A stretch of DNA of 64,000 nt. It comes from an uncultured Eubacteriales bacterium (GTDB lineage Bacteria > Bacillota > Clostridia > Oscillospirales > Oscillospiraceae). Both the position numbers and the translations under genes were made by a program. Under the pieces are notes generated by a model. That model worked only from the letters and a program-made list of their open reading frames with translations. It was not told the origin of the DNA and searched no databases. The stretch lies in NCBI GenBank assembly GCA_949296115.1, contig CASFNR010000002.1:1-64000 (forward strand), written 5' to 3'. How positions within the stretch are numbered: the first letter of the stretch is position 1; each line of letters starts with the position of its first letter. Below are positions 53,001-61,679 of this stretch, in pieces.

Positions 53001-53930
53001 ATGTCTGTAATGGATATCCTGGATAAGCGCGCTGCGTTCTCGTTTGAGGTTTTCCCCCCCAAGACGGATGTGGGCATGGAAAAGCTCTGCGGTGAGGGCG
53101 GCGTCCTGGAGAAGCTGTACACCCTGAACCCGGACTACATCTCCTGCACCTATGGCGCCGGCGGCACCAACGTGGGCAAGAACCTGGAAGTGCTGGACAA
53201 GATCGTCAAGGACGGTAAGACCATCGGCGTGACCCACTTCACCTGCATTGGCAACACCAAGGAAGGCATCAAGGAGCAGCTGCAGACCTATCTGGATCAT
53301 GGCATCAACCATATGCTGGCCCTGCGGGGCGACCTGCCCTTCGGCTGGACCGGCACCGGCGGCGACCTGCATTACGCAACCGAGCTGGTGAAGTTCGTCC
53401 GTCAGGAGTTCGGCGACAAGTTCACCATTGCGGTGGCCGGCTCTCCCGAGGGCCACATCGCCTGCCGCTCCCTGGAGGCGGATATCGCCTTCCTGAAGCA
53501 GAAGCAGGACAACGGCGCCGACTACATCATGACCCAGCTGTGCTGGGATATGGACCAGTTCCGGTACTGGCTGGACGCCATCCGGGCCGCCGGAATCTGG
53601 ATGCCGGTGGACGTGGGCATCATGCCCATTCTGGACCAGGCCGCAACCATCAACATGGCCCTGTCCCGCAACGGCTGCGTCATGCCCCGGGCTCTGTGCG
53701 AGATCATCTCCAAGAACTGGATCTTCCCCAACCCCTTCGTCAAGGATCCCTTCGATGCCGACGTAGAGGGCAAGAAGGCCTCCTTCAAGGCTGCCGGCAT
53801 CGAGTACACCATCAACCAGATCGACGAGTACCGTGCCTGCGGCATCAATGGCATCCATCTGTACGCCCTGAACAAGTACGAGGATGTTGCCTACATCGCC
53901 AAGGCCGCCGGTCTGCTGGACCTGATCTGA
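53001..53930 (+). CDS. metF: 5,10-methylenetetrahydrofolate reductase
   Basis: MetF (309 aa) reduces methylene-THF to methyl-THF. It is a TIM barrel with the N-terminal SFEVFPPKTDVGMEKL, the FAD-pocket segment NHMLALRGDLPFG, SPEGHIACRSLEADI, TQLCWDMDQF and GVGIMP-like segment (DVGIMPILD). AGGAGGTAAAAAGC precedes the ATG. It leads the corrinoid methyl-transfer cluster and would supply the methyl group used by the AcsE domain encoded downstream. No metV partner is adjacent. Confidence 0.96.
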   Translation: MSVMDILDKRAAFSFEVFPPKTDVGMEKLCGEGGVLEKLYTLNPDYISCTYGAGGTNVGKNLEVLDKIVKDGKTIGVTHFTCIGNTKEGIKEQLQTYLDHGINHMLALRGDLPFGWTGTGGDLHYATELVKFVRQEFGDKFTIAVAGSPEGHIACRSLEADIAFLKQKQDNGADYIMTQLCWDMDQFRYWLDAIRAAGIWMPVDVGIMPILDQAATINMALSRNGCVMPRALCEIISKNWIFPNPFVKDPFDADVEGKKASFKAAGIEYTINQIDEYRACGINGIHLYALNKYEDVAYIAKAAGLLDLI

Positions 53931-53993: not shown

Positions 53994-54761
53994 ATGGCAC
54001 CTCATACCATTGCCGTTGCCGGTAAGGGGGGTGTGGGCAAAACCACTACCTGCGGCATGCTTATTGATTATCTGTGCAAGAAGAAGAAAGGCCCCGTCCT
54101 GGTGGTGGACGCCGACGCCAACTCCAACCTCAACGAAGTGCTGGGGGTGGAGGTGGAAACCTCTCTGGGCCAGATCCGGGAGGAGATGGCCCAGGCAGAG
54201 CTGAAGGGAACCATTCCCTCCGGCATGACCAAGGCGGACTACGCTGAGATGAAGTTCAGCTCCGCTTTGATTGAGGATGACGACTTTGATATGCTGGTGA
54301 TGGGGCGCACCCAGGGGAAGGGCTGCTACTGTTATGTCAACGGCGTGCTCCAGTCCCAGGTGGCCAAGTACGCCGCCAACTACGCCTATGTGGTTATGGA
54401 CAACGAGGCGGGCCTGGAACACATTGCCCGGGGAACCCTGCCCCATGTGGACACCATGCTTCTGATTTCCGACTGCTCCCGCCGGGGTGTCCAGGCGGTG
54501 GCCCGGATTGCCGAAATGATCGGGCAGATGAACCTGAATCCCGGCCAGATGGGCCTGATTATCAACCGGGCGCCCCAGGGGGATCTGGACCCGGGCATCC
54601 GGGAGGAAATTGACAAGCACGGCCTGAAGCTGTTCGGCGTGCTGCCCCACGACGAGGCGGTGTATCGCTGCGACTGCGACGGAAAACCCTCCGCCTATCT
54701 GTCGGAGGACGATCCCATGAAGGCGGCGCTGAACAAAATCCTGAGGGACATCGGCCTGTAA
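53994..54761 (+). CDS. CooC/AcsF-family nickel-insertion ATPase
   Basis: This 255-residue deviant Walker ATPase (GKGGVGKTTTCGML, DADANSNLNEVLG) has the CxC metal site in GKGCYCYVNG typical of CooC and AcsF. CooC loads nickel into CO dehydrogenase; AcsF matures acetyl-CoA synthase. The name follows family and position. Its presence beside CFeSP genes, with no CODH or full ACS in the window, is unexpected: either nickel targets exist elsewhere or it serves another protein. 63 nt after metF. Confidence 0.88.
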   Translation: MAPHTIAVAGKGGVGKTTTCGMLIDYLCKKKKGPVLVVDADANSNLNEVLGVEVETSLGQIREEMAQAELKGTIPSGMTKADYAEMKFSSALIEDDDFDMLVMGRTQGKGCYCYVNGVLQSQVAKYAANYAYVVMDNEAGLEHIARGTLPHVDTMLLISDCSRRGVQAVARIAEMIGQMNLNPGQMGLIINRAPQGDLDPGIREEIDKHGLKLFGVLPHDEAVYRCDCDGKPSAYLSEDDPMKAALNKILRDIGL

Positions 54762-54892: not shown

Positions 54893-55834
54893 ATGGCTTT
54901 CACTCCCAAGACGGCTCCCTACAGCGGCAAGATCAATGCCGTGACCCTGGGCACCGGTGACAAGGCGGTTGTCATCGGCGGCCAGAATGTGATGCCGTTC
55001 TACACTTTCGATGCACCCATCGAAAACGCACCCAAGATCGGCGTGGAGATTTCCGACCTGGCTGCCCAGTGGGATGTGCCGGCGCTGAAGGAATTCTATG
55101 CTGGATGCACCACCATGGCCGACTACGCCAAGAAGGCCGAAACCATGCCCGGCGTGGACTTCCTGTGCCTGCACTTTGAGTCTGCTGACCCCAACGGCGC
55201 CAACCGCTCCGTTGCCGATTGCGTGGCCGACGCCAAGGCTGTGGCCGAGGCCGTGTCCATGCCCATCGTGATCCTGGGCTGCAAGAACCTGGAGAAGGAC
55301 GGCGAGCTGTTCTCCAAGATCGCCGAAGCCCTGCAGGGCAAGAACATCCTGGTCATGTCCGCCAAGAACGAGGACTACAAGACCGTGGGCGCCTCCGTCG
55401 TGCTGGCTTACGGCCAGAAGGTGGGCGCAGAAACCGCCGATGACATCAACCTGGCCAAGCAGCTGAACATCATGCTCAAGGGTCTGTCCATCGCCCCGGA
55501 GAGCATCGTGATGAACGTGGGCACCGCTGCGGTGGGCTACGGCTTTGAGTATGTGGCTTCCACTCTGGACCGTGTCCGCATGGCTGCCCTGGCCCAGTCC
55601 GACGCCGACCTGCAGATGCCCATTGTTTCCCCGGTGTCTCCCGACACCTGGAGCGTGAAGGAGTCCACCGCTTCCGAGGAAGATGAACCCGCATGGGGCT
55701 GCCGGGAAGAGCGCGGCATCGAGATGGAAGTCTCCACCGCCGCTGCCAACCTGATCGGCGGCGCTGACGCCGTCATCATGCGTCACCCCGCTGCCATCGC
55801 AACCATCAAGAAGTTCATTACGGAACTTGTCTAA
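54893..55834 (+). CDS. acsD: Corrinoid iron-sulfur protein small subunit (AcsD)
   Basis: AcsD (313 aa) is the TIM-barrel delta subunit of the corrinoid iron-sulfur protein, which carries a methyl group on cobamide. The start region (VTLGTGDKAVVIGGQNVMPF, then TFDAPIENAPKIGVEISD) and the C-terminal AWGCREERGIEMEVSTAA match the family. It precedes the large subunit by 21 nt and both should form the heterodimer. GGGGGATAC stands before the ATG; a stem-loop lies in the preceding 130-nt gap. Confidence 0.94.
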   Translation: MAFTPKTAPYSGKINAVTLGTGDKAVVIGGQNVMPFYTFDAPIENAPKIGVEISDLAAQWDVPALKEFYAGCTTMADYAKKAETMPGVDFLCLHFESADPNGANRSVADCVADAKAVAEAVSMPIVILGCKNLEKDGELFSKIAEALQGKNILVMSAKNEDYKTVGASVVLAYGQKVGAETADDINLAKQLNIMLKGLSIAPESIVMNVGTAAVGYGFEYVASTLDRVRMAALAQSDADLQMPIVSPVSPDTWSVKESTASEEDEPAWGCREERGIEMEVSTAAANLIGGADAVIMRHPAAIATIKKFITELV

Positions 55835-55855: not shown

Positions 55856-58132
55856 ATGGCTTTGAAAGGTCTTGACATTTTTAAGCTGTCTCCGAAGAAG
55901 AACTGTAAGGAGTGCGGCAGCCCCACCTGTATGGCGTTCTGTATGAAGGTGGCCCAGGGCGCGGTGTCCATCGACAAGTGCCCCTACTTCTCCGATGAGG
56001 CGAAGGCAACCCTGAACGAGCAGACTGCACCTCCCATGAAGACCATTACCGTCGGCGACCACAAGCTGGGCGGTGAGACCGTTCTGTATCGTCACGAAAA
56101 GACCCTGGTGAACAAGAACCTGTTTGCCGTTGCCCTGAGCACCGCCATGACCGATGCCGAAGTGGACGCCAAGCTGGCAGAAGTGGCCAAGGTGGACTAC
56201 GAGCGGATCGGTGAGCGGATGTATGTGGAATTCCTGTTCCTGCGCAATGCCGGCACCGACGCCGCCGCCTACACCAAGCTGGTGCAGAAGGCTGCCGCCA
56301 CCGGCCTGTGCCTGGTTCTGGAGTGCTGGGACGTGGAGTGCGCCAAGGCTGCTCTGGCTGTCGCCGGCAAGAACGTGATCCTGGACGGCGCCACCCCCGC
56401 CAACTGGGAGGCCATGAACGAGGCGGCCACCGCCGCCGGCGTGACCCTGGGCGTGTGGGCAGAGAACCTGTCCGACCTGTACGACACCGTGAAGAATCTG
56501 GAAGCCAAGGGCAATAAGAACCTGGTTCTGGACGTCACCGGCAAGACCGCCAAGGAGACCCTGGCCAACGCCGTGCTGGTCCGCCGCACCGCTCTGAAGG
56601 ACGGCGACCGCTCCTTCGGCTATCCCTCCATCGTGAACCTGGCTGCCATTGCCCAGGGCGATGACCGTCTGCAGACCGCTTACGCCACTGCGTTTGTGGA
56701 GAAGTACGGCTCCATCATCGTCATGGAGAACATGACCTATGCCCAGGCTCTGCCGCTGTATGGCCTGCGCCAGAACATCTTCACCGATCCCCAGAAGCCC
56801 ATGAAGGTAGAGTCCAAGATCTACCCCCTGAACGGCGCCGACGAGAACAGCCCCTGCGCCCTGACTGTGGACTTCGCTCTGACCTACTTCCTGGTTTCCG
56901 GCGAGCTGGAGCGCTCCAACGAGCCTGTGAACCTGATTATCACCGACGCTTCCGGTATGTCCGTCCTGACCGCCTGGGCCGCCGGCAAGTTCTCCTCCTC
57001 CACCGTGAAAAAGACCTTCCAGGATCTGGACATTGAGAACAAGATCAAGAACCGCACCCTGATCATCCCCGGCAAGGTGGCCGTGATGAAGGGTGAGATT
57101 CAGGAGAAGCTCCCCGGCTGGAACGTGGTTGTTGCTCCTGCTGAGGCTGTGCAGCTGCCTAAGTACATGAAGGACAAGGAGTACGAGGCTGCCGCCAAGG
57201 CTGCCGCTGCTGAGGCTGCCGCCAAGGCCGCCGCTGCCCCCGTGGAGGAAGTGAAGGAGCTGTCCTTCGACGAACTGCTGGCCACCAAGGTGCCCGCCAT
57301 CGAAGTGGTGGACATGGGCGTCAAGTACAAGGGCCACAACCCCGAGAGCAAGACCTTCGTTACCATCGGCGAACGGATCCATTGCATCTCCCCCGCCATC
57401 CGCAAGGCAATGGACGAGCGGGATCCCGCTCCCATCCTGAAGCGTGCTGCCGAGCAGATCGCTGCCGGCGCCACCTACCTGGATGTGAACATCGGACCTG
57501 CTGAGAAGGACGGCCCCGAGCGCATGATGTGGGCGGTCAAGCTGCTGCAGGAGAACTTCAACAATGTTCCTCTGGCTCTGGATACCGCCAATAAGAAGGC
57601 CATCGAGGCCGGTATCAAGGTCTACAACCGGACCAACGGCAAGCCCATCGTGAACTCCGCCGACGCCGGCTCCCGTATCTCCAACATCGACCTGGCTGCT
57701 GCCAACGACGCCATCTGTATCGCCCTGTGCTCTGCCGACGGCATTGCCAAGGACAACGACGAGCGGATGAAGCACTGCCACGACATGCTGGAGCGTGGCC
57801 TGAGCCTGGGCATGACCTCCGACGACCTGTGGTTCGACCCCCTGTTCCTGGTTGTCAAGGGTATGCAGGACAAGCAGATGGACGTGCTGAACGCCATCAA
57901 GATGTTCGCCGACGAGGGCCTGAAGTCCACCGGCGGCCTGTCCAACAACTCCAACGGCGCACCCAAGAACGTCCGTCCCATCATGGATTCCGCTCTGGTG
58001 GCCATGGCCATGATGCAGGGTCTGACCTCCGCCATTGTCAACCCCTGTGACCTGCGCCTGATGGAGACCATCAAGTCCTGCGACATCTTCAAGAACCACG
58101 TTCTGTACTCCGATTCCTACCTGGATCTGTAA
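55856..58132 (+). CDS. Fusion of CFeSP large subunit (AcsC) and methyl-THF methyltransferase (AcsE)
   Basis: One 758-residue protein carries two normally separate enzymes. Residues ~1-440 are AcsC: the 4Fe-4S motif Cys17-X2-Cys20-X4-Cys25-X16-Cys42, a TIM barrel, and a corrinoid-binding end (IITDASGMSVLTAWAAGKFS, LIIPGKVAVMKGE). Residues ~443-463 are an Ala-rich linker with Lys and Glu. Residues ~500-758 are AcsE: TIGERIH, DVNIGPA, the pterin-binding VNSADAGS, and GLSNNS with the conserved Asn. Both parts look complete. The fusion should pass the methyl group from methyl-THF to the attached cobamide. GGAAGGAGGAT precedes the ATG. Confidence 0.93.
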   Translation: MALKGLDIFKLSPKKNCKECGSPTCMAFCMKVAQGAVSIDKCPYFSDEAKATLNEQTAPPMKTITVGDHKLGGETVLYRHEKTLVNKNLFAVALSTAMTDAEVDAKLAEVAKVDYERIGERMYVEFLFLRNAGTDAAAYTKLVQKAAATGLCLVLECWDVECAKAALAVAGKNVILDGATPANWEAMNEAATAAGVTLGVWAENLSDLYDTVKNLEAKGNKNLVLDVTGKTAKETLANAVLVRRTALKDGDRSFGYPSIVNLAAIAQGDDRLQTAYATAFVEKYGSIIVMENMTYAQALPLYGLRQNIFTDPQKPMKVESKIYPLNGADENSPCALTVDFALTYFLVSGELERSNEPVNLIITDASGMSVLTAWAAGKFSSSTVKKTFQDLDIENKIKNRTLIIPGKVAVMKGEIQEKLPGWNVVVAPAEAVQLPKYMKDKEYEAAAKAAAAEAAAKAAAAPVEEVKELSFDELLATKVPAIEVVDMGVKYKGHNPESKTFVTIGERIHCISPAIRKAMDERDPAPILKRAAEQIAAGATYLDVNIGPAEKDGPERMMWAVKLLQENFNNVPLALDTANKKAIEAGIKVYNRTNGKPIVNSADAGSRISNIDLAAANDAICIALCSADGIAKDNDERMKHCHDMLERGLSLGMTSDDLWFDPLFLVVKGMQDKQMDVLNAIKMFADEGLKSTGGLSNNSNGAPKNVRPIMDSALVAMAMMQGLTSAIVNPCDLRLMETIKSCDIFKNHVLYSDSYLDL

Positions 58133-58161
58133 GACAGAATCAATCAATCCCTGGCGTTTGC

Positions 58162-58187
58162 GGCTGGGAGGGAACTCCCTCCCAGCC
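58162..58187 (+). terminator. Stem-loop after the AcsC-AcsE gene
   Basis: A near-perfect 11-12-bp GC-rich stem lies 30 nt past the stop codon. There is no strong T-tract, so it may trim or stabilise the upstream mRNA and let some transcription continue. Confidence 0.55.
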
Positions 58188-58220
58188 CATTTGCGTGTCA
58201 ACCACGGAGAGGACGGCTGC

Positions 58221-58658
58221 ATGGAAATTTGGCAGTATCTGCTGGCAGCGGCAGCGGGAGCTGGCGTCCTGGCGCTGGCTGTCCGTTCCGCCGTCATCAA
58301 GCGCAGGCTCCGGCTGGAACGGGATTTTACCCGTACTCTGGAGACGGTGCTGCAGCCCCGGGAGACGGTGAAGGTGGTCTGCCCCAACCGGCATGACCAC
58401 TGGATTCTCACATCCCGCCGGCTGCTGCTGGAGACGAAGGATGGATTCCTGGCCATCCCATTTTCAAAAATCAAGAGCCTGCAAGGACAGGACAGCGGGG
58501 GAAAGACCACTGCATCCCCCGGAAAGATGGCCCGCCTGGTGGTAAAAACAGACCAGAGCCACATTCTGGAAAACCGGGCGCCGGAATTTGCTTCGCTGGT
58601 CAGACAGCTGAAGCAGTATCGAAACAAATCCAGACGGAAGGGAAAAAATAAGCCCTGA
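58221..58658 (+). CDS. Small membrane-anchored PH-like protein
   Basis: This 145-residue protein has one N-terminal helix (IWQYLLAAAAGAGVLALAV), then a charged, beta-rich domain: VVCPNRHDHWILTSRRLLLETKDG, then LAIPFSKIKSLQGQDSG. The pattern (WxLTxxRLLLET.. I..SKIKSL) resembles bacterial PH-like domains. A Lys/Arg-rich tail follows. It is not part of any known CODH/ACS system. Lies between acsC-acsE and the ACS-like gene on the same strand, so it may anchor the complex. ATG after GGAGAGGA. Confidence 0.6.
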   Translation: MEIWQYLLAAAAGAGVLALAVRSAVIKRRLRLERDFTRTLETVLQPRETVKVVCPNRHDHWILTSRRLLLETKDGFLAIPFSKIKSLQGQDSGGKTTASPGKMARLVVKTDQSHILENRAPEFASLVRQLKQYRNKSRRKGKNKP

Positions 58659-58732
58659 AGCCAACGAATTTCCCTGGAAAACCCGCCGGAAACGGCTTAG
58701 TATACAGATAAATCAATTTGGGAGGAATCGAT

Positions 58733-59671
58733 TTGAGCGTATTGATAGACCTGATTTACGGTGGCAGCACAGTCCTGGTAGGATTAACCGAAGCAGGCCT
58801 GCGGGATGCCATCGCCAAGTACGGCCCGCAAAAAGAAATTGCCTTCCCGGACACTGAATATTATTTCCCATTTCTCTATGCTGCCACAGGGGCCAAGGTT
58901 CAGACGCTGGAGGATCTGAACAACTGCGTGGCCGCAATGAAGAAGATGATCTCCAACCAGGAGGACCTGTACCTGGCGCTGAATGCGGGGCTGGCGGCCA
59001 TAATGGGAGCGGAAATCATTGAGGGACTGAAATATGCCGGCAATTCTCACCCTTATGAAACGGACACCGGCCTTGGCTTTCTTCCGGATTCCGCAGTGCG
59101 CACCCTGGGAAAAGCGCTGCTCTCCGGGGAAATTCCCGGTGCGGCTGCCCTGCTGGGAAAAGCGGAAAATACCGAGGACCTTTTGAACATTGTGTCAGAT
59201 TATCGGAAGAACGGCGTCCTAGTTTTTCTGGAGGGGGACATAATTGAACAATGTGCCCAGGGCGGCGTTGAAATGGGGCTGGAACAAGGGATTATCCCCC
59301 TGGGACACGACATAACCTCGGTGGTGCATGCCCTGACGCTGACAGTGCGCGGCGCCTTGATCGGAGGCGAAGTAAAGCCGGGGGATCTGCCCGCCCTGCG
59401 GGAATTTACCCGGAATCGGGTGCCTGCCGTGGTGAATACCTTTGGAGCGATTGACGCCGTGGTGGTTTCCGCCGGCGCCGGGGCCATCGCCCTGGGATTC
59501 CCGGTAATTGTGGACATCGATCTGGAGGAGAGCCAGATGACCGGCGTTCTGGAATCGGTCTGCGACCATTCCCAGACTGTCAAAAAATCCCTGGAACTTG
59601 GGACAATCAAAATAAACGAACCGGAAAAGACGGAAACTTCCATTCCGGAAGATAACACAAAACCGGACTGA
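58733..59671 (+). CDS. Stand-alone ACS N-terminal-domain-like protein (no A-cluster domains)
   Basis: This 312-residue protein resembles only the first domain (A1, ~310 residues) of bacterial acetyl-CoA synthase, from LIYGGSTVLVGLTEAGLRDA to DHSQTVKKSLELGTIKI. Shared stretches include AKYGPQKEIAFPDTEYYFPF, GAEIIEGLKYA, EIPGAAALLGKAENTEDLL and VVHALTLTVRGALIGGEVKPG. In ACS this domain contacts CO dehydrogenase and lines the CO channel. The A-cluster Cys ligands and the methyl- and CoA-binding domains are absent; a polar tail and a stop follow. TTG start, GGAGG 7 nt upstream. Confidence 0.82.
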   Translation: MSVLIDLIYGGSTVLVGLTEAGLRDAIAKYGPQKEIAFPDTEYYFPFLYAATGAKVQTLEDLNNCVAAMKKMISNQEDLYLALNAGLAAIMGAEIIEGLKYAGNSHPYETDTGLGFLPDSAVRTLGKALLSGEIPGAAALLGKAENTEDLLNIVSDYRKNGVLVFLEGDIIEQCAQGGVEMGLEQGIIPLGHDITSVVHALTLTVRGALIGGEVKPGDLPALREFTRNRVPAVVNTFGAIDAVVVSAGAGAIALGFPVIVDIDLEESQMTGVLESVCDHSQTVKKSLELGTIKINEPEKTETSIPEDNTKPD

Positions 59672-59756: not shown

Positions 59757-61679
59757 ATGAAAGTAACCTTCCAGATCGAGGGGGCATCCCCTGTTATCAT
59801 TGAATGCAATGCCGGAGACAATCTGCTGGAACTGGCCCGCCGGGCCAATGTGGCCATTGACGCCCCCTGCTCCGGCAATGGTTCCTGCGGCAAATGCCGG
59901 ATTCGGCTGGTGGAGGGGGAAGTGGAATCCCTGCAAAGCCGCCATCTGAGTGATGAGGAATACGCTGCCGGCTGGCGGCTGAGCTGCAACTGCAAGGTGG
60001 TGGGAGATTGCACGGTGTTCGTCCCGGATATTGCCAGCGCCTACCAGTCCAGGATGAAAACTGCCGACCTGAGCAGCCCTCAGGAGGTCGCCATCTTCCA
60101 GGAGTGCCAGAACCAGCTCCATGCCAGCGGCATCCGGTTTGAAAATCCCTTCCGGGCGGTGGTGCTGCACCTGTCTGCGCCCAGTCTGGAGGACACCATG
60201 CCGGACAATGAACGGCTGTCCTGGGGCATCCGGGAGGCATTGGGGGTGGAAAAGGTGGAGATCCCCTTCGGGGTGATGGTTCACCTGTCCCATATCCTCC
60301 GGCAGGAAGGCTTCGCAGTCTGTGTCAAGGGCCAGCTTCTGGGGGATGCCTTCCGCTGCATGGAGATCACCGGGGTGGCGGATACGGCGCTGGTGGGTGC
60401 TGCCATTGACATCGGCACCACCACGGTGACCATGGTGCTGACGGATCTGACCACCGGGAAAATCCTGGCCAAGGGTTCTTCCGGCAACGGGCAGATTCGC
60501 TACGGAGCGGATGTCATCAACCGGATTATCCAGCAGGGACGTCCGGGGGGCAGAAAGAAACTCCAGGATGCCATTATCAAGGAGACTTTGACGCCCATCC
60601 TGGTCAACCTATGCAAGTCTGCCGGGGTCTCCGCCCGGAGCATCCTGCGGCTCTGTGTGGGCGCCAACACCACCATGAACCACCTGTTTGTGGGAGTGGA
60701 TGCCGAGCCGGTGCGGATGGAGCCATATGTACCCAGCTTCTTCTCCTGGGAAGGGCTGCTGGCCGGGGACCTGAAGCTGCCGGCCAACCCTCTTGCCCCG
60801 GTCATCATTGCGCCCAACATCGGCTCCTATGTAGGGGGAGACATCACCGCCGGAACCCTGGCCTCCGGCATCTGGGACAAGGATGAAATGAGCCTGTTCA
60901 TTGACCTGGGAACCAACGGAGAGATTGTGTTCGGCAACCGGGATTTCCTGATGAGCTGCGCCTGCTCCGCAGGTCCCGCCTTTGAGGGCGGCGATATTTC
61001 CTGCGGCATGCGGGCTACCGATGGGGCAGTGGAAGCCTGTACCATCGACAAGGAGACCATGGAGCCTGCCCTGGGTATTGTAGGAGACCCGGATCAGCGG
61101 CCGGTGGGCATCTGCGGCAGCGGCATCATTGACCTGATTTCGGAGCTGTTCCGCACCGGCATCATCAATGCCAAGGGCCTGTTCGTCCGGGAGGGAGAAC
61201 GGGTGAAGCGGGACGACCACGGCATGGGGCGTTATGTACTGGCCTGGGCGGAAGAGAGTGAAACCGGTCGGGAGATCTCCATCAACGAGGTGGACATCGA
61301 CAACTTCATCCGGGCCAAAGGCGCCATTTTCTCTGCCATTGATACCCTGCTGAAGTCTGTGGACATGACGGTGGACACGATTGACCGGGTCTATGTAGCC
61401 GGCGGCATCGGCAGCGGCATCAATATGAAGAATGCAGTGAACATCGGAATGTTCCCGGATGTGGACCTGGAAAAATTCCATTACATCGGAAACTCCTCCC
61501 TCAGCGGCGCCTACGCCATGGTCATGAGCGATGCCGCTGCGGAGAAAACCGCCGAGGTCGCCTCCAACATGACCTATCTGGAGCTGAGTACCTACCCCGG
61601 ATACATGGATTCCTTTGTGGCGGCCTGTTTCCTGCCCCACACCGACGCCCGGCTGTTCCCCAACAGCTGCCGGGGCTGA
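59757..61679 (+). CDS. Corrinoid protein reductive activator (RACo-like, 2Fe-2S + ASKHA)
   Basis: This 640-residue protein has an N-terminal 2Fe-2S domain (Cys38, Cys44, Cys47, Cys77 in the CX5CX2C pattern) and an ASKHA-type ATPase domain (ALVGAAIDIGTTTVTMVL, then FIDLGTNGEIVFG, VYVAGGIGSGINMKNA). It matches RACo, which uses ATP to reduce inactive Co(II)-CFeSP to Co(I). Some call such proteins AcsV. It closes the CFeSP cluster and would keep the AcsC-AcsE fusion active. ATG with GAAAGGAACGG upstream. Confidence 0.92.
   Translation: MKVTFQIEGASPVIIECNAGDNLLELARRANVAIDAPCSGNGSCGKCRIRLVEGEVESLQSRHLSDEEYAAGWRLSCNCKVVGDCTVFVPDIASAYQSRMKTADLSSPQEVAIFQECQNQLHASGIRFENPFRAVVLHLSAPSLEDTMPDNERLSWGIREALGVEKVEIPFGVMVHLSHILRQEGFAVCVKGQLLGDAFRCMEITGVADTALVGAAIDIGTTTVTMVLTDLTTGKILAKGSSGNGQIRYGADVINRIIQQGRPGGRKKLQDAIIKETLTPILVNLCKSAGVSARSILRLCVGANTTMNHLFVGVDAEPVRMEPYVPSFFSWEGLLAGDLKLPANPLAPVIIAPNIGSYVGGDITAGTLASGIWDKDEMSLFIDLGTNGEIVFGNRDFLMSCACSAGPAFEGGDISCGMRATDGAVEACTIDKETMEPALGIVGDPDQRPVGICGSGIIDLISELFRTGIINAKGLFVREGERVKRDDHGMGRYVLAWAEESETGREISINEVDIDNFIRAKGAIFSAIDTLLKSVDMTVDTIDRVYVAGGIGSGINMKNAVNIGMFPDVDLEKFHYIGNSSLSGAYAMVMSDAAAEKTAEVASNMTYLELSTYPGYMDSFVAACFLPHTDARLFPNSCRG

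Follow-up and report, generated by a model that had tools for sequence, protein, structure and literature searches.

The gene at positions 58733..59671 (+ strand) of the window, by which I mean the whole stretch of 64,000 nucleotides that was analysed, encodes a stand-alone domain A1 of acetyl-CoA synthase (ACS), 312 amino acids in length. It is a reduced form of one of two ACS paralogues (here called type A and type B), a point absent from the preliminary description of this DNA. The gene is real and not an artefact, it is a variant of a known family, and it arose by loss from a spare ACS. The reading I favor, at a probability of about 40%, is that a type A acsB gene was cut back to the A1/A2 boundary, with loss of A2 and A3, and that the remainder has been kept as a non-catalytic A1, which would bind CODH as a cap or regulator. 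I found no description of a stand-alone A1 in the literature searched (subscription papers lay outside that search).

The gene and its neighbors

The open reading frame begins with TTG and runs for 312 codons plus a stop; a second in-frame TTG, at 58718, is also a candidate start. Residues 11-296 match positions 3-292 of the 705 in the NCBIfam model CODH_ACS_al_bet (E 1.2e-72), with a score of 245 bits that falls below the whole-protein cut-off of 800, as it necessarily does for a partial protein. The Pfam model CODH_A_N also matches (E 6e-26), and among solved structures the best matches, 6yua (E 5e-66) and 6ytt (E 5e-65), are both ACS of C. autoethanogenum. An AlphaFold2 model (mean pLDDT 85) superposes on ACS domain A1 with a TM score of 0.90, though it provides no independent evidence, since the underlying alignment included the A1 domains of full-length relatives. 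Similarity to ACS ends at the A1/A2 boundary and is followed by a polar tail of 16 residues (297-312; 59621..59668, + strand), where pLDDT drops below 50. The preliminary description had proposed just this, A1 followed by a polar tail, with a profile search as the check, and there can be hardly any doubt that the protein is domain A1 of bacterial ACS.

Domains A2 and A3 are absent from the protein by profile and by tblastn over the window, and so are the cysteines of the A-cluster, whose motif is taken to be CxxC...C...C and CGC. When the post-A1 parts of type A and type B ACS were compared by tblastn with the whole window, no remnant of A2 or A3 appeared; the sole match with E below 0.02, at 59552-59647, is the end of A1 itself. 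The earlier statement that neither the downstream sequence nor other frames hold such a remnant therefore stands, and a fresh truncation with remnants was rejected.

The gene order, all on the + strand, is metF - cooC-like - acsD - acsC/acsE fusion - small ORF - A1 - acsV. The first of these (methylenetetrahydrofolate reductase, 53001..53930) was recognized through Pfam and NCBIfam, as was the P-loop ATPase gene that follows (53994..54761), by models that do not name cooC; that label is presumed from the neighborhood. Next come acsD, encoding the small subunit of CFeSP (54893..55834; NCBIfam), and the fusion of acsC and acsE, encoding the large subunit of CFeSP and the methyltransferase within one ORF of 758 amino acids (55856..58132; NCBIfam). 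The small ORF (58158..58658, from ORF reading) has its likely start at the ATG at 58221 and an N-terminal hydrophobic stretch, and found no match in Pfam or NCBIfam. Beyond the A1 gene lies acsV (59757..61679; Pfam and NCBIfam), encoding the reductive activator of CFeSP (RACo family).

Some features of this region deserve separate mention. The small ORF adjoins acsC/acsE in many relatives, including some without acsB. A perfect 12-bp inverted repeat, noticed by eye at 58162-58187, about 30 bases past the stop of acsC/acsE, could act as a terminator or attenuator and so set A1 apart from the CFeSP genes. Every relative within the genus for which the complete gene was read has acsC and acsE fused, and in L053, from another family, the acsC match is an ORF of 450 amino acids without acsE. 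A survey reports acsE undetected in 78% of Oscillospirales genomes (PMC11338639), and the fusion may explain those missed genes.

Two types of acsB, one CODH and a variable slot

The genus is an Oscillospiraceae gut genus, at least 118 of whose 136 searched genomes hold A1, and most species read carry a full type A and a full type B acsB. Those sequence relatives that have names are mostly gut genomes of Oscillospiraceae, Clostridia or Bacillota, some of them Candidatus Faecousia or Avoscillospira. Type A occupies a slot in the series acsD, acsC/acsE fusion, acsB, acsV, and in nearly all matches listed the identity of its A1 with the window protein is 61-66% (57% in G008). Type B, 36-44% identical to the window A1, is placed after CODH and a second cooC-like gene. 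The A-cluster motifs are kept in all 20 type A and all 17 type B sequences examined, and the idea that type A is a non-catalytic paralogue throughout the genus was rejected on the former count.

A search for CODH in 18 genomes of the genus found exactly one full-length CODH in 16; in 13 of those 16 genomes, type B acsB is no more than a few kb away from it (of the other three, G142 has its CODH on another contig, and type B of G066 and G157 was not among the matches listed). The two types of ACS would thus have to share one CODH. The window genome, a draft of 85 contigs and 90% completeness, yielded a 50-residue N-terminal piece of CODH at the edge of contig C29 and one weak match below the family cut-off; G143, one of three other genomes with an A1-only gene, gave no match in the CODH search. 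Looking for A2-A3 in these genomes, I found a single place in each of three (the window genome, G064 and G002), type B every time; G143, which is 85% complete, gave none. The window genome's own type B acsB, on contig C27 (L032 1-1544), begins at about residue 182, inside A1, at the contig end. It is 93% identical to that of G064 over the alignment and lacks, relative to it, 49 bp at position 456, between A1 and A2, which shifts the frame. In G064 and G002 the series CODH-cooC-acsB is intact, and type B there is a full-length protein that includes an A1 of its own. The frameshift in C27 and the CODH cut off at the end of C29 probably reflect an assembly break in a highly conserved locus. In G132, two type A clusters (L087, L088), each with A1 and A2-A3, accompany type B, through either contamination or duplication.

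Among the matches listed, an A1-only gene lies between acsC/acsE and acsV in four species: that of the window, G143, G064 and G002. Its place beside the CFeSP genes, for which the preliminary description had suggested looking in other genomes, is the same in all four. In nine genomes (G140, G062, G009, G087, G135, G035, G142, G122 and G137) acsB is absent between acsC/acsE and acsV on one contig; six (G124, G152, G071, G010, G099 and G107), in which acsV was not found on the stretch covered, were left unscored for the slot. The empty slot of G140 holds an unrelated DUF6056 ORF (L099 5177-6568), for which its near relative G062 has no room.

The count of A1-only genes in the genus is at least four, and strongly diverged ones could escape the search. 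The short A1 frames of G125, of G032 and of the second G095 copy break off at contig ends, and G121 has a complete A2-A3 across a frame change. The genus survey left out type A frames of 550 (G150) and 525 (G146) amino acids, a 144-aa contig-end piece (G025), a 460-aa frame (G032) and type B frames of 261-573 amino acids (G141, G130, G145, G099, G063, G071, G005 and G032). No further A1-only gene was found among 391 genomes sampled from the class (22 with A1) or 394 from the order (14 with A1), samples that overlap in some genomes and from which a 537-aa frame (G186), a 669-aa frame (G566) and a 49-residue match (G416) were left out. In a sample of 398 genomes from the phylum (114 with A1), ten short frames match A1 at its N-terminal end. 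Nine of them run to the end of a contig (two each in G1071, G1165, G1229 and G1142, one in G1103; the call for the second frames of G1229 and G1142 and for G1103 is from coordinates alone), and the tenth, in G1195, is considered below.

A tree of the neighboring proteins has 44 rows (from 55 rows with any neighbor protein, 8 that were too short being dropped earlier and 3 at the tree) and includes seven of the nine genomes with an empty slot. The window genome, G143 and G064 form a clade with SH-aLRT support of 100, and their sister, again with 100 for the pair of trios, is G062/G140/G142, in which the slot has no acsB. G002 lies apart, and forcing the four together costs 76 log-likelihood units, with p-AU of 0.107. 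The tree of A1 itself unites all four A1-only genes with a support of 92; the branches involved are long and attract each other. The four genes may have a single origin, which at that p-AU is not rejected.

The ribosome-binding site of the A1 gene, GGGAGG at 58720..58725 (+ strand, from sequence reading), is part of the inheritance. Each of the four A1-only genes has the string GGGAGGAA ahead of its start; the identical string is found in 5 of 15 full-length type A genes, all 15 of which carry GGAGG upstream, and conservation of the site was accordingly dropped as a sign of function. The start codon is TTG in the trio and ATG in all 15 full-length genes examined, which suggests weaker expression in the trio.

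Residues kept and lost in A1

In the ACS of M. thermoacetica, Ile146, Val149 and Phe229 of A1 line a CO alcove over the A-cluster, and Arg142 touches a cluster ligand (PMC11474084). Changing the counterpart of Phe229 to Ala in C. autoethanogenum by itself abolishes autotrophic growth, according to PMC11321310. The equivalents of Arg142, Ile/Val146, Val149 and Phe229 are R, V, V and F in all 38 type A A1 domains that run into A2. In the window protein they are R, K, L and G, one of four being kept. Codon 123 (59099..59101, + strand), equivalent to Arg142, gives Arg in the window and G002, Ser in G143 and Ala in G064. Codon 127 (59111..59113, + strand), equivalent to Ile146, gives Lys in the window and R, Q and M in G143, G064 and G002, and position 149 reads L, I, L and V in the same order, starting with the window. 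The equivalent of Phe229, codon 211 (59363..59365, + strand), is Phe in 38/38 type A and 17/17 type B sequences and is lost in all four A1-only proteins (Gly in the window; S, L and C in the others).

Retention across the domain was assessed over 90 positions conserved in type A, type B and C. autoethanogenum, each position in each of the four A1-only proteins making one cell. The N-terminal bundle keeps 62 of 72 cells, and the gating helix together with helix alpha-B keeps 51 of 104; the gating helix region (codons 119-136; 59087..59140, + strand), whose limits come from the AlphaFold2 model, keeps 28 of 56. These cells are not independent of one another, since the sequences are related. In a second comparison, for which the alcove positions had been viewed before testing, six alcove or tunnel positions average 0.83 of 4 kept, as against 2.75 elsewhere (random sets as low, 0.16%; circular shifts, 6/275), the gating helix 1.61 against 2.80 (0.04%; 9/292), and helix alpha-B 1.69 against 2.78 (0.26%; 18/293). 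Ala222 and Ala225 are taken here as tunnel positions. The pattern, as far as sequence can tell, is that of a protein that can hardly deliver CO to an A-cluster.

Maintenance, decay and possible partners

The A1-only gene has changed rapidly in a conserved setting. Identity of the window A1 is 72% with its counterpart in G143 and 55% with the one in G064 (range within the trio, 55-72%), as compared to 100% (over 252 residues) and 98% for acsC/acsE and 92% and 89% for acsV. The small ORF also diverges (81% and 63%; dN/dS 0.25-0.27), which indicates that the region, and not A1 alone, evolves fast. Between G002 and the window, A1 is 54% identical, and metF, cooC, acsD, acsC/acsE and acsV are 81-96% identical.

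Pairwise dN/dS, from simple counting and on the assumption that truncation is older than the split of the trio, is 0.23 for window-G143 (bootstrap 95% interval 0.15-0.31), 0.24 for window-G064 and 0.36 for G143-G064, at synonymous distances of 0.87-1.5, those above 1 being near saturation. Three pairs of full-length type A A1 domains give 0.06-0.12. The difference lies also in dN, which is 0.20-0.36 among A1-only genes and 0.03-0.07 between full-length A1 domains. There are no stop codons in any of the four A1-only frames. In a neutral simulation without indels, none of 1000 copies was free of stops at the matching distance, and 42 of 1000 were at one third of that distance. The two marks by which a pseudogene might be known, a disabled frame and dN/dS near 1, are thus not found in the A1-only gene. 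These comparisons point to a gene maintained under relaxed or changed constraint and perhaps weakly expressed. With intact frames in four species and dN/dS well below 1, they bear out the preliminary description's view that this stand-alone form has evolved as such and is no fresh truncation. I consider it probable that the protein has retained a function of some kind.

A slow decay would account for much of this and is quite possible, if short of even odds. With type B present the cell could do without type A, whose catalytic part would have been deleted, leaving an A1 remnant to drift under weak constraint until lost. The nine genomes without acsB in the slot, with the closest relatives of the A1-only trio among them, are what might be expected of such a process, as are the divergence of A1 next to a nearly invariant acsC/acsE, the loss of residues that face the A-cluster, the TTG start of the trio, and two internal deletions, in conserved stretches of A1, in G002. 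Decay does not sit well, however, with the low dN/dS and intact frames at such synonymous distances, nor with similarity that stops at one and the same domain boundary in four species.

If the gene does have a function, the position between acsC/acsE and acsV in 4/4 cases might suggest that the protein binds AcsD and positions or shields CFeSP while AcsV activates it or AcsE methylates it. In an AlphaFold3 model of ACS-CFeSP published in PMC12289521, the N-terminal domain of ACS touches the beta subunit of CFeSP, and L053, in another family of the order, has ACS and an AcsD-like part in one ORF. The slot is inherited from the full-length gene, however, and position therefore says little; I regard this role as improbable. 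The ORF in L053 (8296-11835) is 1179 amino acids in length, and frames of 1161-1197 amino acids in three other genomes of the order may match it.

The preliminary description also raised one half of a split ACS, with A1 supplied in trans to an A2-A3 protein, as might be imagined from archaea, where A1 and A2-A3 are separable (PMC11474084). This has little to recommend it and was rejected as the main reading. The A2-A3 places in the A1-only genomes are all type B, with an A1 of its own in G064 and G002, no A2-A3 protein without its own A1 was found in the window genome (a small doubt attaches to its completeness and to the frameshift in C27), and a protein that has lost the residues capping the A-cluster, Phe229 in every case and Ile/Val146 to K, R, Q or M, and so can hardly deliver CO, is unlikely to serve as such a half. 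An artefact of assembly or binning, conceivable in so fragmented a draft, can be dismissed, given four species with the same arrangement on contigs continuous from acsC/acsE to acsV.

The favored reading, a CODH-binding cap or regulator, takes its partner from what is known of the domain. A1 is the CODH-docking domain of ACS in acetogens (PMC11474084). In as-isolated CODH-ACS of C. hydrogenoformans the dominant state has only A1 on CODH, with the tunnel closed, and A1 stays there, the tunnel shut, while A2-A3 is mobile (PMC12289521). In a cell that has a single CODH and also type B, the simplest role for a retained A1-only protein would be to take up ACS sites on CODH; granted a function, I lean toward CODH as the partner. 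After type A acsB had lost A2 and A3 at the domain boundary, the A1 remnant would have been maintained as a non-catalytic protein. This might bind CODH at the site for ACS, on which full-length type B would dock as well, occupy it without completing a path for CO, and by its occupancy tune how much CODH works with ACS. The low dN/dS, the stop-free frames, the N-terminal bundle, the part best kept, and the structure 6yua, described below, support this; it is weakened by the location of the gene with the CFeSP genes and not with CODH, by the sister trio without acsB in the slot, and by the deletions in G002, the TTG starts and the raised dN, which also fits relaxed constraint.

A hint that a stand-alone A1 may serve as a partner of CODH comes from f224, another family of Bacillota, in which a stand-alone A1 bundle of 130 amino acids lies directly upstream of a CODH gene in three of five genomes (L200 11002-11391, L210 4466-4855 and L211 1089-1472). 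These bundles are 69-71% identical to that of G1195, and CODH meets the contig end in two of those genomes. The cluster around the G1195 bundle also contains a full ACS, further along, and two CODH genes that are 99% identical. That non-catalytic A1 proteins derived from ACS evolved at least twice, in this genus and in f224, as dedicated CODH regulators is a tentative suggestion, and rather doubtful.

The origin of A1, which both docks on CODH and conducts CO, is discussed as open in PMC11474084. In a natural A1-only protein whose CO path is broken and whose fold is predicted to be intact, docking would be uncoupled from gas conduction, and such a protein could serve at once as a reagent for the effect of A1 alone on CODH. 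If the favored reading is true, an ACS stripped to its docking domain serves to occupy or gate the CO enzyme. There is a practical side as well: a survey of ruminant microbiomes relies on acsB to mark acetogens (PMC12449052), and counts of acsB by domain match can take a non-catalytic protein for ACS.

As compared to bacterial AcsB, then, the window protein is homologous over A1, with the same predicted fold; A2, A3, the A-cluster and most of the alcove residues are missing from it. The structure 6yua, by its entry title CODH coupled to the ACS N-terminal domain, has A1 alone on CODH, though the ACS of C. autoethanogenum is full length (6ytt), whereas here the gene encodes A1 only. Archaeal CdhC, as the preliminary description rightly stated, lacks A1; it shows that A1 and A2-A3 are separable and presents the converse case, A2-A3 without A1 (PMC11474084). 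The bundle of f224 (L200) is likewise a stand-alone piece of A1 that is kept across species, but it comprises only the N-terminal bundle and lies by CODH, not between CFeSP genes.
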